Shown: in pieces, positions 28,601 to 63,876 of the stretch | How positions within the stretch are numbered: position 1 is the first letter of the stretch | Layout: each line of letters begins with the position of its first letter | Source of the DNA: Opitutus sp. ER46 | GTDB taxonomy: Bacteria > Verrucomicrobiota > Verrucomicrobiia > Opitutales > Opitutaceae | NCBI RefSeq assembly: GCF_003054705.1 | Contig: NZ_QAYX01000017.1 | Location: 62,001 to 126,000 of the forward strand | DNA length: 64,000 bases | Reading direction: 5' to 3' | The notes under the pieces: model-generated | Database searches by the model: none | The model's input: the letters and a program-made list of their open reading frames with translations, nothing else | What the model was told of the DNA's origin: nothing | Program-made: the position numbers and the translations under genes

Positions 28601-28659
28601 GATAACTAGCCAATTCTGGCTAGTTACGGGCGATAACTAGCCAGATCTGGCTAGTTATC
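28601..28659. repeat. Twin TAACTAGCCA palindromes
   Basis: Copy 1 (28603-28626) has 10-bp arms TAACTAGCCA and TGGCTAGTTA around ATTC. Copy 2 (28632-28659) is a perfect 28-bp palindrome with the same arms around GATC. The two start 31 bp apart. The sequence is AT-rich relative to its surroundings. It may be tandem binding sites, a mobile-element relic or a two-way transcription stop. Confidence 0.85.
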
Positions 28660-28811
28660 TCAGGGACGCGATGGCGTCAGCGCGCCCGTTTTCGGCGGCG
28701 GCATGGCCATTGGCCGCGGGGCGGGGGCTCCTCTCGCGTTCGAGTGCATGTCGACGGCGACGCCGAGCCGCCGGCGGAATCTGGTGCGACGCGAGCCGGA
28801 ACTCGGGCACG

Positions 28812-58451: not shown

Positions 58452-61400
58452 TCAGAATGATGCGGTCAACGACAGAGAATAAACGCGGCCGCGCCAGTCG
58501 CCGTAAGGCTGGACGCCCGCGCCGACGGAGTCGTTGGCGTACTTGGGAAACGGATCGTTGAGGAGGTTGTTGACGCGGACCTGCAGCCGCAGGCCGTAAC
58601 GCGACGGATTCCACGGCAACCAACGCGCCAGTTCCGTCTGCACAAAGGCGTCGAACTGCCAGTAGGGGCGGATGCGGTCGTGGCCTTGCGCCTCCCACTC
58701 AGCCTGGCGCAGCAGCCGGGAGGCAAAGTAGTGACCATCGAGGCCAAACCCCCAGTTCTGGTTCGACCACGCGGCGCCGAAATTCGAGCGGTACTTGAGC
58801 AGGTGCACGAGGCCGTCCGGATGGCTCAGCTCGTTGACCATCGGCTCCGTCGGCAGCGAGCGCACGTCGTAGCGCGTGAAGGCGAGGAGACGGGCGTAGG
58901 CCTCGAGCCGCCCGCCGAGGCACGCGTCCCAGCGATAATCGACCGAGCTCAGCCAGTGTTGCGAGTGGCGGTCCGCGAGGTTCGCGCGGGTGGTCGTGAT
59001 CCGTTCGATTATCCCGGTGCCGGGGGCTTCGCCGGGCCCCGGCGCGGCGCGCTGGATCAGGTCGGGCCACAGCGCTTCGTGCGCCACGGCCGTATTGCGG
59101 TCGATAAACGCGATCTCGTTCACCTTGCGCGTATCCACGAAATCGATCGCCGCGCGTATGCGATGCGCCTTGCCCGCCTGGTAGAGGAGCCCGGCGGCCT
59201 GCGTGGCGGTGGACTCCGGTTGCAGGTCCGGCGTGAGAATCTCATTTACCGCCACGGCGTAGGTCTGGTTGTTGCGGCGCGGATCGGTGATCTCCTCGAG
59301 ATTGACGGGGGCCACGCCACCACCGGTCCCGGGCACGATCAACGGCCGACTCATGTGTGGCGTGGGAAACCGGGTGGAGGTCGTGACGCTGCCGCGCAGT
59401 GCCAGCCCGCCGGGAAAGGCGATCTTGGCGGCGAAGGTCGGGGCGACGTTGGACTCGCGGGAGCTGTTTGCCGCTACGTACCGCACCGCCACATCGCCCT
59501 CGATGCGGGCGAGCCAGCGGGGCAGCGCTTCCGGGCGGACCACGTTCCCCTGGACCTCGCCAAACAGGCTGTAGCGGGTGAGCGTACGGGCATCCCAGCG
59601 AGTCGGAGTATCGTACTCGGTGCCATCGGCGTAGCGCCGCTCGTCGTTGTACTTCTCGAGGCGGTTTTGGCGATAGTCCGCGCCGAGGTTGAGCACGCCC
59701 GCGCCCGTGGGGAGCGGCAGCGCCTCGTTTATTGCCCGGGCGGCGAGATCGATCGTGGAGTAGTCGCCCATGGTGGCGAACTTGCCGCGACCCTTCCGAT
59801 AAACGAGGACCTCGTCGTAGAATGCAGGCGGAGGGCCGTAGACCTGCGTGTCGCGGAGCGGATTGTAGCGTCCCTCATTGATCAACCGCTGCCAGCGCTC
59901 GGTGTCGGCGCCCCAGAGCCCGCGGTAGCGGACGAGTGCGCGCGAATACTGCGCATCCAGGGCGAGCCGCCAGGCGCGGGGCAAGCTGACGAGCGCGCCG
60001 AGGACGAAGGCGGCCGACTCGAGCCGGGCTTCGCTGTAATTCTCACCCAGCTGTGGAGCGGTCTCGAGCAGGGACACCTTCACCTCCTGGCCAAAGGGGT
60101 TGAGCGGGGAGGCGGTCGGGAGCGTCAGATCGGCAGCGATGACATCGAACCCGCGATGCACGGTCTGGTGCGAATAGGTGCCGTCGAGCGAGAGCTGCAG
60201 CCACGGCGTGACGTCACCCACGACGGATCCGAAATAGGTGGAGCGACGCTGCTCGCGGCCGTACGGAAAGTCCAAGCTCTGCAAGCCGGTCGAGAGGCTG
60301 CCGGGCGAGTCAAAGAAGCCGAGATTGCGCCGGCCTTCGCGCCCTTGAAAGGCGGCCAGCCCCCCGGAGCCGTCGGCGCCGGGCGCGACCGAACTGACGC
60401 TCGCGTTGCCCGCGGGGAAGAGCGGCGGGAGAAGCGACTTCGGCAAGGCGGAGACGGGGCGGATGGTTCGGACGTTCGGCGTCGCGCCGAAGACGGCGGC
60501 ATCCTGCTCCGGCACGACGCGTACCCGGGCCTGCCGGAATCCCAGCTCGGTCTCGGTGGGGGGACTGGCCTTGGTGAAGGTGGCATTGAGCCGCACGCGG
60601 AGACGCCCACCGAGCAAGGAGTGGGCGTGGAGCAGCGAGAGGGAGGCCTGCGCGGCGTCGTACCCGCCGAGGGTGTTTGTATAGGTTGACGTGACCTCGG
60701 TGGCATCGGCGTCCACATCAGGCCGGAGCACGATATTGATCACCCCGCTGACGGCGTTGCCGCTGTAGAGTGCCGCGGCCGCGACGGGCAGCACCTCGAC
60801 GCGCTGGACCAGACTGAGGGGGATAAAGCTGACGTCGGGCGGCTGGATATCATTCCGCTGGCCGTTGATCTCACCGCTGATCAGGACCTCGGGCAGGCGG
60901 CGGCCATTCACGAGGATGACGGTCTCCTCCTCCTTGAAGCCGCGCATGCTGACGTTGCTGCTCCCGACGAGCACGCTCTCGGCGCTACCGTTCTGCTCCG
61001 GCGGAAGGGCATCGGCGTTGCTGTCGATGAGCTCGCGCTGGATGAACTCGTTGAGACTGACGACGCCGCTCCGCGCGATCTGGGTGCGGTTGAAGATCAT
61101 GTACGGGAGGGGCCCGCTCTCGGTGCGGGGCAGGTCGAGGTTGCCGCCGGCGCGACGCGGTTCGTACAGGGCGTCGCTGTGATCGAGCGGCGAGAGGTGG
61201 GAGGCTCGGCCACGGACGACAAACGGTTCGAGCTGCGTGGGATCTTCGGTGGGCAGAAGGACCTGGGGCTCCAACTGGGTCACGCGGCCCGCCACGACGG
61301 GAATGTCGATGATCTGGAGCGGGCGACAGCCCGGAGCCGTCGCTGCGAGCGTGTGTGCGCCCGGAGGCACGTCGGGCAGGGCGAAATTGCCGTGCGCGTC

Positions 61401-61832
61401 CGTTTCCAGCGTGCGCTGGAGTGCCGGGAGCAGGACGCGAACGCGCCGGGCGGAGGATCCGTCCGGCGCGCGAATTGTGCCTTGGATGGTGCCGCTTGGC
61501 GGCGCGGCGCCGGTGATGATCCATCGGTTCTCAGCGGCCTGGCGGGCGGTGAACCCCGTGCCGCGCAGGAGTCGTTCAAGGGCCTCCCGCGGCTCGAAAC
61601 GTCCGACGACGGCCTGGCACTGGACACGGCGCAAGTCCTCATAAGAGAAAAGGATCTCGACTTTGGCCTGTTTGGCGAAGGCGAGGAGTCCTCGATCGGC
61701 CGACTGAGCCGGGATGTTGAACTCGACCGGGGCGCCGCGAGAAAGACTCGGCAACGCGAGTATCCCGAGGAGCACGAGGGCCAACGCCAGGAGGCGTGCG
61801 CGCGGCGTTCGCCCGCCGCATGGCGTGGTCAT
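58452..61832 (-). CDS. TonB-dependent receptor with STN and carboxypeptidase-regulatory-like domains
   Basis: A 1126-residue outer-membrane receptor. After the signal peptide (LLALALVLLGILALPSLSRG) there is an STN domain (FNIPAQSADRGLLAFAKQAK; VVGRFEPREALERLLRGTGF), which contacts the FecR-type anti-sigma factor. A CarboxypepD_reg-like beta domain follows (GTIQGTIRAPDGSSARRVRV), then the plug (SNVSMRGFKEEETVILVNGR; VEVLPVAAAALYSGNAVSGV) and a long barrel ending LSLTASF, a suitable terminal Phe. It imports an unknown ligand using TonB energy. The fecR and ECF sigma genes lie upstream on the same strand, so ligand binding probably drives expression of the receptor itself. Confidence 0.94.
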   Translation of the reverse strand: MTTPCGGRTPRARLLALALVLLGILALPSLSRGAPVEFNIPAQSADRGLLAFAKQAKVEILFSYEDLRRVQCQAVVGRFEPREALERLLRGTGFTARQAAENRWIITGAAPPSGTIQGTIRAPDGSSARRVRVLLPALQRTLETDAHGNFALPDVPPGAHTLAATAPGCRPLQIIDIPVVAGRVTQLEPQVLLPTEDPTQLEPFVVRGRASHLSPLDHSDALYEPRRAGGNLDLPRTESGPLPYMIFNRTQIARSGVVSLNEFIQRELIDSNADALPPEQNGSAESVLVGSSNVSMRGFKEEETVILVNGRRLPEVLISGEINGQRNDIQPPDVSFIPLSLVQRVEVLPVAAAALYSGNAVSGVINIVLRPDVDADATEVTSTYTNTLGGYDAAQASLSLLHAHSLLGGRLRVRLNATFTKASPPTETELGFRQARVRVVPEQDAAVFGATPNVRTIRPVSALPKSLLPPLFPAGNASVSSVAPGADGSGGLAAFQGREGRRNLGFFDSPGSLSTGLQSLDFPYGREQRRSTYFGSVVGDVTPWLQLSLDGTYSHQTVHRGFDVIAADLTLPTASPLNPFGQEVKVSLLETAPQLGENYSEARLESAAFVLGALVSLPRAWRLALDAQYSRALVRYRGLWGADTERWQRLINEGRYNPLRDTQVYGPPPAFYDEVLVYRKGRGKFATMGDYSTIDLAARAINEALPLPTGAGVLNLGADYRQNRLEKYNDERRYADGTEYDTPTRWDARTLTRYSLFGEVQGNVVRPEALPRWLARIEGDVAVRYVAANSSRESNVAPTFAAKIAFPGGLALRGSVTTSTRFPTPHMSRPLIVPGTGGGVAPVNLEEITDPRRNNQTYAVAVNEILTPDLQPESTATQAAGLLYQAGKAHRIRAAIDFVDTRKVNEIAFIDRNTAVAHEALWPDLIQRAAPGPGEAPGTGIIERITTTRANLADRHSQHWLSSVDYRWDACLGGRLEAYARLLAFTRYDVRSLPTEPMVNELSHPDGLVHLLKYRSNFGAAWSNQNWGFGLDGHYFASRLLRQAEWEAQGHDRIRPYWQFDAFVQTELARWLPWNPSRYGLRLQVRVNNLLNDPFPKYANDSVGAGVQPYGDWRGRVYSLSLTASF

Positions 61833-61911
61833 GTGCCGCCGTCGGCGATCGCAGGCGGCGCCATCGGCCGACGGTTCTGCTGCGGTTGGGGTAAATGCGC
61901 GCACGGGCGGG

Positions 61912-62913
61912 CTAGCGGCTGGGGCGGGACCGTACGGCGATCGCGCCGCTCGAATCGCGCGAAACCTGCACGGGAAGAAACGCCTCGATCGCGTTCAGGA
62001 AGCCGTCGAGGTCGGCGAGTCGGAAGCGACCGCCGACGCGGAGTGAGGCAATCTCGGGAGCGGCCGAAATGTTCCGGCCGTGGAATCGACTGAACCGGGC
62101 GAGCGCGCGATCGAGGGTGGCGCCGGTGAACACGATTTCGCCATGCCGCCACGCCAGCGCGTCCTCGATTTCGGAGGCGGCGAGAGAACGGCACGAAACC
62201 GAATCCGGTGCGGCAATGAGCTGCTGGCCACCGATGAGCGAAACCGGAGCCGGTGTGGGGCGGGCGTTGCTGGAGCTTGGCCGCACCTGGACGGAGCCCT
62301 CGACGATAGTGACCTCGAGTTCCGCCTCGTTCTCGGCGTGGACGTCGAAGACGGTGCCGGTTACGCGGACTGAGCCGGCCGGCGTTTCGACAATGAAGGG
62401 ACGGGAGGGGTCTTTCGCGACGGTGAAGAACGCCTGTCCGTCGGCCATGCGGACACGGCGTTCCGTGCGGTCGAGGTTCACCAGGAGGCTGGTGCGGGCA
62501 TTGACTTCAACCGCGGTGCCATCCGCCAGGCGCAGGGTCTTGCGCTCGGCAAACGAAGTCGCGATCGCATCCGTCTGGACCGCTGGGCGTCCGCTCCACA
62601 CGACGACGGTGAGGGCCGCCGCGGCCGCGGTGAGGGCACCGGCAAACCAGAGAACACGCCGGCCGATACGCCGGGGATGAACCGTCTCGGGCATGGCGAC
62701 CTGCCCCGAGGCGACGAGGAGGGGAAGCTGCGCTTCGAGATCGGTGGAGAACTGGCAATACTCGGAGAGTAGGATGCGGTGATCGGGATGTTGCGCCAGC
62801 CAGGCGTCGAGTTCGTTGCGTTCCGTGGCGGACAATGGGCCGCCGTCGAGCTTGGCGGCCCAGCGAGCAGCTTGGTCGTCAGCGTTGCGGTTGGTAGAAT
62901 GGGAGAGGCTCAT
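61912..62913 (-). CDS. fecR: FecR-family anti-sigma factor
   Basis: A 333-residue membrane regulator. The cytoplasmic N-terminus (AARWAAKLDGGPLSATERNE; LDAWLAQHPDHRILLSEY) grips the sigma factor, one helix crosses the membrane (LWFAGALTAAAAALTVVVW, about 88-106), and the periplasmic FecR domain follows (LADGTAVEVNARTSLLVNLD; ETPAGSVRVTGTVFDVHAEN). The C-terminal part has an STN-like region (ATLDRALARFSRFHGRNISA). It overlaps the sigma gene by 4 bp, so the two are coupled. Confidence 0.93.
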   Translation of the reverse strand: MSLSHSTNRNADDQAARWAAKLDGGPLSATERNELDAWLAQHPDHRILLSEYCQFSTDLEAQLPLLVASGQVAMPETVHPRRIGRRVLWFAGALTAAAAALTVVVWSGRPAVQTDAIATSFAERKTLRLADGTAVEVNARTSLLVNLDRTERRVRMADGQAFFTVAKDPSRPFIVETPAGSVRVTGTVFDVHAENEAELEVTIVEGSVQVRPSSSNARPTPAPVSLIGGQQLIAAPDSVSCRSLAASEIEDALAWRHGEIVFTGATLDRALARFSRFHGRNISAAPEIASLRVGGRFRLADLDGFLNAIEAFLPVQVSRDSSGAIAVRSRPSR

Positions 62914-63488
62914 GACGTTGCCTCCTGGGATGGTTTGCCGGACCGCGGCACCGATGTGTCGGCGGGCGCGAGTCTGGATTCCGCGGGCAGCGCCGCCTTG
63001 AGCAGCCGGAGGGCGCGCGCGTGTTGCTTTTCAACCGTGCTCACGGCGATGCCGAGTCGCTCGGCAATTTCGCGGTGGGAGAGAAGTTCGACTTTGCGAA
63101 GCAGGAGCACGTTGCGGCAGCCCGACGGCAGCTGCGCGATCGCCTGCTGCAGCAACTGCAGTTCCTGACGGGCCATCACTTGGCGCGCGACGTCGGGATG
63201 CGGCGCAGCGGTCGTCTCCAGACTGACGCCTTCCGGGGTAATTGGGGAGATGCTGCGTCGCTTCAGCCGATTGATGGCCAGGCGACGGGCGGTGACATAG
63301 AGGAGAGCTTCGGGGCGATTGGCTTCCTGCCGCTGCACGGTGGGATAGACGCGGAGGTAGGCGTCATGCGCGATGTCCTGTGCCTCCGACGGATTGCCCA
63401 GCAGGCGCGCCAGATAGCGGCGGAGCGGGGAAAGCGTGGCGCGATAGAAGGCTCCAAAATCGCGCGGAGTTTCCGGCTCGTCAGGCAT
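62910..63488 (-). CDS. fecI: ECF sigma factor, FecI-like
   Basis: A 192-residue sigma factor. Region 2 is LARLLGNPSEAQDIAHDAYL and region 4 is QLPSGCRNVLLLRKVELLSH with REIAERLGIAVSTVEKQHAR. It is the first gene of sigma-fecR-receptor, the order seen in cell-surface signalling. The start at 63488 gives a normal N-terminus; a frame open to 63635 adds 49 unlike codons. Two hairpins lie 150-235 bp upstream. Confidence 0.93.
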   Translation of the reverse strand: MPDEPETPRDFGAFYRATLSPLRRYLARLLGNPSEAQDIAHDAYLRVYPTVQRQEANRPEALLYVTARRLAINRLKRRSISPITPEGVSLETTAAPHPDVARQVMARQELQLLQQAIAQLPSGCRNVLLLRKVELLSHREIAERLGIAVSTVEKQHARALRLLKAALPAESRLAPADTSVPRSGKPSQEATS

Positions 63489-63636
63489 CGCGCAGGAAGA
63501 AGCCTCCGCCGTGGAGGCAGGGTCGGATGATCCGTCGAAACGAATCAAAGAAGTGGGCGAACTGGGATTCACGTCTGCCCATACGCGACAATCGAAATCC
63601 TGCCGTCCGCTAGTCGCCAGAATGATTTCAAACAAA

Positions 63637-63675
63637 AGCCGGGTACAACCCGACAGGGGCGGGCTGTACCCGGCT
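63637..63675. promoter_or_regulatory. Long hairpin 1 upstream of the sigma-factor gene
   Basis: AGCCGGGTAC (63637-63646) pairs with GTACCCGGCT (63666-63675). Inside, CCCG pairs with CGGG around ACAGGGG. Only one or two bases mismatch. On the minus strand it lies in the sigma-gene leader or just after the small gene at 63757. Confidence 0.65.
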
Positions 63676-63698
63676 GCTGCATTCTATTGAAAGCCAAT

Positions 63699-63721
63699 CC
63701 AACTCGGCAGGGGCGAGTTGG
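63699..63721. promoter_or_regulatory. Hairpin 2 with a loop matching hairpin 1
   Basis: CCAACTCG (63699-63706) pairs with CGAGTTGG (63714-63721) across GCAGGGG. Compared with hairpin 1 the inner stem changes from CCCG/CGGG to CTCG/CGAG, a compensating pair, while the loop keeps CAGGGG. Confidence 0.65.
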
Positions 63722-63756: not shown

Positions 63757-63876
63757 CTAGGAATGTTTGCGATGCCAGCGACGGGCGATCGGTAGTTCTC
63801 CGAAGTAGAGGACCGCCTCCGTCACCGCGAAAGCTCCGGCGACCAACAGCTGAATCACTGTTTTGAGGAATCTCAT
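63757..63876 (-). CDS. Possible small membrane protein
   Basis: A 39-residue frame from the ATG at 63876: one hydrophobic helix (TVIQLLVAGAFAVTEAVLYF) followed by a basic tail (ARRWHRKHS). A longer 61-residue form starts at 63942. It lies in locally AT-richer sequence, with the two hairpins just downstream. The helix-plus-basic-tail shape is what a real small membrane protein would show, but no family is recognised and the start has no clear ribosome site. Confidence 0.4.
   Translation of the reverse strand: MRFLKTVIQLLVAGAFAVTEAVLYFGELPIARRWHRKHS

Follow-up and report, generated by a model that had tools for sequence, protein, structure and literature searches.

Two hairpins lie among genes that, as far as the surrounding region was read, are all on the minus strand of the window, which is the whole 64,000-nt stretch of DNA that was analysed. 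Along that strand the order is FabV, Dtd, a 39-aa ORF, hairpin 2, hairpin 1, a fecI-like gene, fecR and a gene for a TonB-dependent receptor (Table 1), and this order bears out the placing of the hairpins before an ECF sigma gene in the sequence-only reading. FabV and Dtd were identified by NCBIfam matches, FabV being truncated by the end of the stretch read. The fecI-like product has Pfam matches to Sigma70_r2 and r4, and no barrel model matched the receptor at E 0.001. In gene order and Pfam content the operon downstream of the hairpins resembles FecI/FecR/TonB-receptor cell-surface signalling operons; it differs in that the hairpins found here are no conserved part of the orthologous loci.

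Table 1. Features around the two hairpins, in window coordinates
Feature	Coordinates	Strand	Remarks
TonB-dependent receptor	58452..61904	-	plug domain above cut-off, STN match below cut-off
fecR-like anti-sigma gene	61912..62913	-	Pfam
fecI-like ECF sigma factor gene	62910..63488	-	start at MPDEPE inferred from orthologue alignment
Promoter-like element TAGCGG-N15-TTGTC of fecI-like gene	63587..63612	-	conserved; downstream of hairpin 1
T tract after hairpin 1, TTTGTTT	63630..63636	-	continuous with T at stem foot
Hairpin 1, probable intrinsic-terminator stem-loop	63637..63675	-	loop CCCCTGT on minus strand
Hairpin 2, probable weaker companion hairpin	63699..63721	-	loop CCCCTGC, poor T tail (ATTGGCTTTC)
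Small ORF, 39 aa, one hydrophobic stretch (MRFLKTVIQLLVAGAFAVTEAVLYFGELPIARRWHRKHS)	63757..63876	-	start from alignment with homologue

The hairpins had been described as sharing a CAGGGG loop with a compensating change in the stem, and both the coordinates and the sequences of that description are correct. The 16-nt arms of hairpin 1 are 94% complementary, and its 7-nt loop reads ACAGGGG on the plus strand; on the minus strand its 16 pairs are followed by TTTTGTTT, the T tract being interrupted by a G. Hairpin 2 has 8 pairs and the loop GCAGGGG on the plus strand. In the reading order of the minus strand, the stop codon of the 39-aa ORF (63757-63759) is followed by 35 nt, hairpin 2, hairpin 1 and TTTTGTTT. 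On the plus strand the cores are CAACCCG-ACAGGGG-CGGGCTG, inside the 16-nt-arm stem of hairpin 1, and CAACTCG-GCAGGGG-CGAGTTG in hairpin 2. They differ at 4 of 21 positions. Two of these constitute a compensated change of a C-G to a T-A pair (CCCG/CGGG to CTCG/CGAG), the third is one-sided and leaves in hairpin 1 an A.C on the plus strand and a G.U on the minus strand, and the fourth is one loop base. Folded alone, hairpin 1 is better on the minus strand (-32.0 kcal/mol versus -28.3 kcal/mol on the plus strand) and hairpin 2 on the plus strand (-12.3 versus -10.2 kcal/mol). When folded with flanks and compared with shuffled sequences, hairpin 1 is far more stable than expected (z -6.7 on the minus and -4.9 on the plus strand) and hairpin 2 mildly to moderately so (z -2.6 and -1.7, respectively).

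The 39-aa ORF belongs to a family of small, probably membrane proteins with the pattern IAxAFxxVEAxxFVTELP...RR, scattered in this bacterial family (63757-63876 on the minus strand of the window, G000:C22:93755-93841, L142-L148 and L206). The C22 locus is a possible second member in the window's own genome (E 3.4e-6). For the two members that were searched there was no Pfam match at E 0.001 and no NCBIfam match at E 0.1. Profile A3 matched 11 of 200 genomes of the bacterial family at E 0.01 or better; 6 of the 11 had supplied profile rows, while G186 and G110, which are not in the profile, gave E values of 1.9e-22 and 1.9e-5. The A3 matches L207-L209 and L211 (E 0.003-0.008) look like chance. 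Apart from the window's own locus and that of G019, no fecI-type sigma gene was found within ~1.5 kb of the ORF at the 24 further loci, which include six clear family members. These homologues away from fecI speak for a genuine gene for a small protein and against a fecI leader peptide. At L206 the small ORF and a xylulokinase gene (NCBIfam XylB) are convergently oriented, and ends of xylulokinase-like genes were seen by eye after the small ORF at L143, L144, L145 and L147.

Orthologous fecI loci were collected for comparison. The 62 loci considered (11, L040-L050, and 51, L070-L120) leave out further sigma matches at ≤44% identity among the matches listed. L116-L118 and L120 (<50% identity) and L106 and L110 (without upstream DNA) were dropped, which left 56 loci including the window's own, 51 of them distinct after removal of near-duplicates; a few (L073, L093, L112 and L114) have <600 nt upstream. 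Among the 56 loci the small ORF precedes fecI only in the window, at L043 of G019 and at L071 (contig JAUSID010000076.1), a near-duplicate of the G019 locus; the next match had an E value of 0.08. In no other species than G019 (L035/L043) was the small ORF found ahead of fecI; the ORFs of G019 and the window are 46% identical. The G019 gap contains an unrelated hairpin, TGCGTC-GCCTGTG-GACGCA, and a T8 that lies not at the stem but 11 nt downstream. That hairpin has a z of -0.08 against shuffles and is missing from the best fold of a longer 85-nt stretch. Since the G019 gap holds a different hairpin and T8, at most the position of a terminator is kept, not the structure. L147, a family member with other neighbours, has a strong hairpin with T7 after the small ORF (z -4.0). 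Within 160 nt past the ORF, a run of at least 5 T occurs at just two of the 8 small-ORF loci, L035 and L147, and a strong terminator is therefore no fixed part of this family.

A conserved element does lie upstream of the fecI-like genes. The consensus common to the loci is TAGYGG-N15-TTGTC, or TRGYGGRTTY-N8-CGRTTGTC in its fuller form. The motif was first drawn up by visual comparison of six loci of this set and then scored on the whole set as TAGCGGGTTT-N(8-19)-CGATTGTC. At least 13 of 18 matches were obtained in 45 of the 51 distinct loci, own included; among the controls, 4 of 56 shuffled stretches and 2 of 55 intragenic ones did as well. The spacing was exactly 8, the shortest tried, in 44 of those 45 loci, and the remaining six loci score 11-12, no better than the controls. 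In the window the element, read 63612-63587, is TAGCGGACGG-N8-CGATTGTC with 14 of 18 matches, and 17 nt separate it from the T tract of hairpin 1. With two conserved blocks separated by ~16 nt ahead of an ECF gene, the layout would fit an autoregulated ECF promoter. That 45 of the 51 distinct loci share the element opens the sigma factor's own promoter to a direct test. In its exact form, TAGCGG-N15-TTGTC occurs three times in the window's own genome and three times in the reversed control, so no large regulon is shown in this form. Because the promoter-like element is downstream of the hairpins, they would lie outside the inferred fecI transcript; if the promoter reading is right, they would be absent from the fecI mRNA.

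Intrinsic (Rho-independent) terminators, including tandem ones, are a known class. A terminator scan flagged both hairpins, in each case on the minus strand alone. Over 2 kb it gave 5 sites, all on the minus strand, against 1.5 expected, one of the five being a shorter form of hairpin 1; elsewhere in the genome, T-tailed stems number 47 in 484 kb versus 25 in one Markov control. Both minus-strand stem-loops are GC-rich and more stable than shuffles, and a T tract comes right after the stem on the coding strand, clearly in hairpin 1 and weakly in hairpin 2. The site resembles known intrinsic terminators in the GC-rich stem-loop of hairpin 1 with a T tract directly after it and in its position after a same-strand gene and before the promoter-like element of the next gene. 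It differs from them in the poor T tail of hairpin 2, in the G that breaks the T tract of hairpin 1, and in a near-identical 7-nt loop common to both hairpins, for which terminators have no need. For hairpin 2 the weak T tail and the better fold, when alone, as plus-strand RNA count against a terminator. The earlier suggestion that the hairpins may end the small upstream gene is supported by the anatomy, since they are on the same strand, 35 nt past the stop codon of an ORF that has homologues, and the strong stem with T tract exists on the minus strand only.

Judged from these features, hairpin 1 is very probably a terminator, with hairpin 2 as a weaker companion, that ends the transcript of the 39-aa gene before a separate fecI promoter. 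Such an arrangement is ordinary in bacteria and is locus-specific here. A minus-strand transcript of the 39-aa gene would pass hairpin 2 and then hairpin 1, where the GC-rich 16-pair stem together with TTTTGTTT in the non-template strand would lead to release of RNA polymerase. The fecI-fecR-receptor transcript would start at its own ECF-type promoter, the conserved part of which begins 17 nt further on; with the promoter so placed past the T tract, the terminator would insulate the two transcription units. Hairpin 2 probably arose by duplication of the same core and may act as a back-up or as a stabiliser of the 3′ end.

It is very unlikely that the hairpins form an attenuator or riboswitch-like leader of the fecI operon, with the 5′ arm of hairpin 2 and the 3′ arm of hairpin 1 as antiterminator and the ORF as leader peptide. 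The operon is indeed preceded by a short ORF and then by hairpins with a T tract, and the cores could pair crosswise with each other at 7 positions, one pair being U.G, but the constrained cross-paired fold is much poorer (-36.2 versus -61.0 kcal/mol). The homologues of the ORF away from fecI and the promoter-like element downstream of the hairpins also speak against a leader. There is no Rfam match at the hairpins, and the sole match in 60-64 kb lies elsewhere and below the family threshold. A listing of hairpins at the 55 other fecI loci (50 distinct) contained no copy of the pair. With a covariance model, R1, built from the two hairpins, the best E value over the same 55 loci was 0.39, in L097; this search before fecI-like genes, the check that had been proposed, thus found only the window's own locus below E 0.39. 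At the DNA level, none of 56 other genomes drawn from the genus, family and order matched the hairpin region. Control of the ECF sigma gene, which the sequence-only reading had offered as one possibility, is accordingly not supported, given the lack of orthologous conservation and the fecI promoter-like element downstream of the hairpins. The same reading had taken a swapped stem pair beneath a kept loop as the pattern of a conserved structure, and no conservation was found at orthologous positions. In place of a supposed RNA switch ahead of a FecI-type sigma gene there stands a plain terminator, if the interpretation preferred here is right.

We also consider it very unlikely that the hairpins belong to a small RNA or a protein-binding 3′ UTR, whose two C-rich loops (CCCCUGY) would pair with target mRNAs or bind a protein. 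The loop is kept across neighbouring hairpins while a stem pair is swapped, as such a function would have it. A single compensated pair between two copies is weak evidence of selection on structure. Against the reading, R1 found only these two hairpins below E = 1 in the window's own genome and, under stricter filters, nothing better than E 0.09 in 56 relatives. For the own-genome hit L168 (E 2.5) and for L169-L171 in the relatives (E 0.09-0.4), 140 nt of sequence were inspected in each case, and all four were put down to chance. The pentamer CCCTG occurs in hairpin loops at 4 of the 51 distinct fecI loci, own included, versus 7 for the commonest GC-rich pentamers. As a conserved signal (L041, L042, L070 and L073) it was rejected, being no commoner than other GC-rich pentamers. 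Little likelihood also attaches to the related proposal that the mRNA 3′ end of the small membrane protein is released as a small RNA, its CCCCUGY loops being selected while the stems drift.

The resemblance of the two hairpins, 17 of 21 nt in the core and 6 of 7 in the loop, is above chance, in a test that is post hoc. Among comparisons of non-neighbouring hairpins with 7-nt loops (484 kb of the window's own genome, both orientations), 286 of 1,478,622 reached 17 of 21, and 62 of these also matched at 6 of 7 loop positions. Two of 402 neighbouring pairs reached 17 of 21, namely hairpins 1 and 2 and a GC-rich pair; this count leaves out hairpins of the TGTCACG family, with which there are 418 neighbouring pairs, several reaching 19-20 of 21. 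The likeness of hairpins 1 and 2 suggests a local duplication, which is the sole explanation offered for near-identical loops that termination does not need.

That they are instead copies of a dispersed palindromic repeat (REP, MITE-like) which by chance lie in this gap is most improbable. Two related palindromes do lie 54 nt apart, and the genome has another clustered palindrome family with similar spacing. Against this, CGNCAGGGGCG is found at 63 places and its reversed control at 50, only a mild excess. Thirty of the 63 places were read; none of the 28 others among them has more than 4 unbroken pairs next to the loop, and 3 reach 4, whereas hairpin 2 has 8, and hairpin 1 has 4 before the plus-strand A.C mismatch and then continues. 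The covariance model finds no other copy, and a genome-wide repeat was rejected by the exact core pattern search, this stem check and R1 in the own genome. Operator palindromes for a dimeric repressor are scarcely credible: the half-sites CAACYCG/CGRGTTG are near-symmetric, but conservation is no weaker at the centre than in the half-sites themselves, and hairpin 1 leads into a T tract.

Other palindromes were seen in these searches. A palindrome of the form GGGGA-W(n)-TCCC lies upstream of the small ORF at 5 of 8 homologous loci (own, L035, L142, L143 and L144), with two copies each in L143 and L144, which are of the same genus. The own copy, TTGGGGATTTTTCCCCAA, is at G000:C17:126016-126031, just right of the window (64016-64031). 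The background of GGGGA-W(n)-TCCC is 1 in 484 kb, the pattern used in the 8-locus search being somewhat looser; TGGGGA-N(3-5)-TCCC has 20 matches in the own genome, and an all-A/T centre occurs only at this site, which matches on both strands. At two fecI loci that lack the small ORF, L041 and its duplicate L084, a GGGGA-W(n)-TCCC palindrome is present as well. Allowing up to 2 mismatches, the own genome has the 19-bp palindrome TGTCACGTANTACGTGACA at no fewer than 75 places and the reversed control at none; in the window there is none at up to 3 mismatches. Among the matches listed it is often in tandem groups with spacings of ~46, 55 or 101 nt (for example, L133:10516-10690 and L139:1997-2162). 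At 1 mismatch it is present at all in 11 of 57 genomes, with 75, 73, 37 and 25 places in G003, G017, G025 and G019. Within the window, 28602-28661 contains the adjacent palindromes AACTAGCCA-ATTC-TGGCTAGTT and AACTAGCCA-GATC-TGGCTAGTT.
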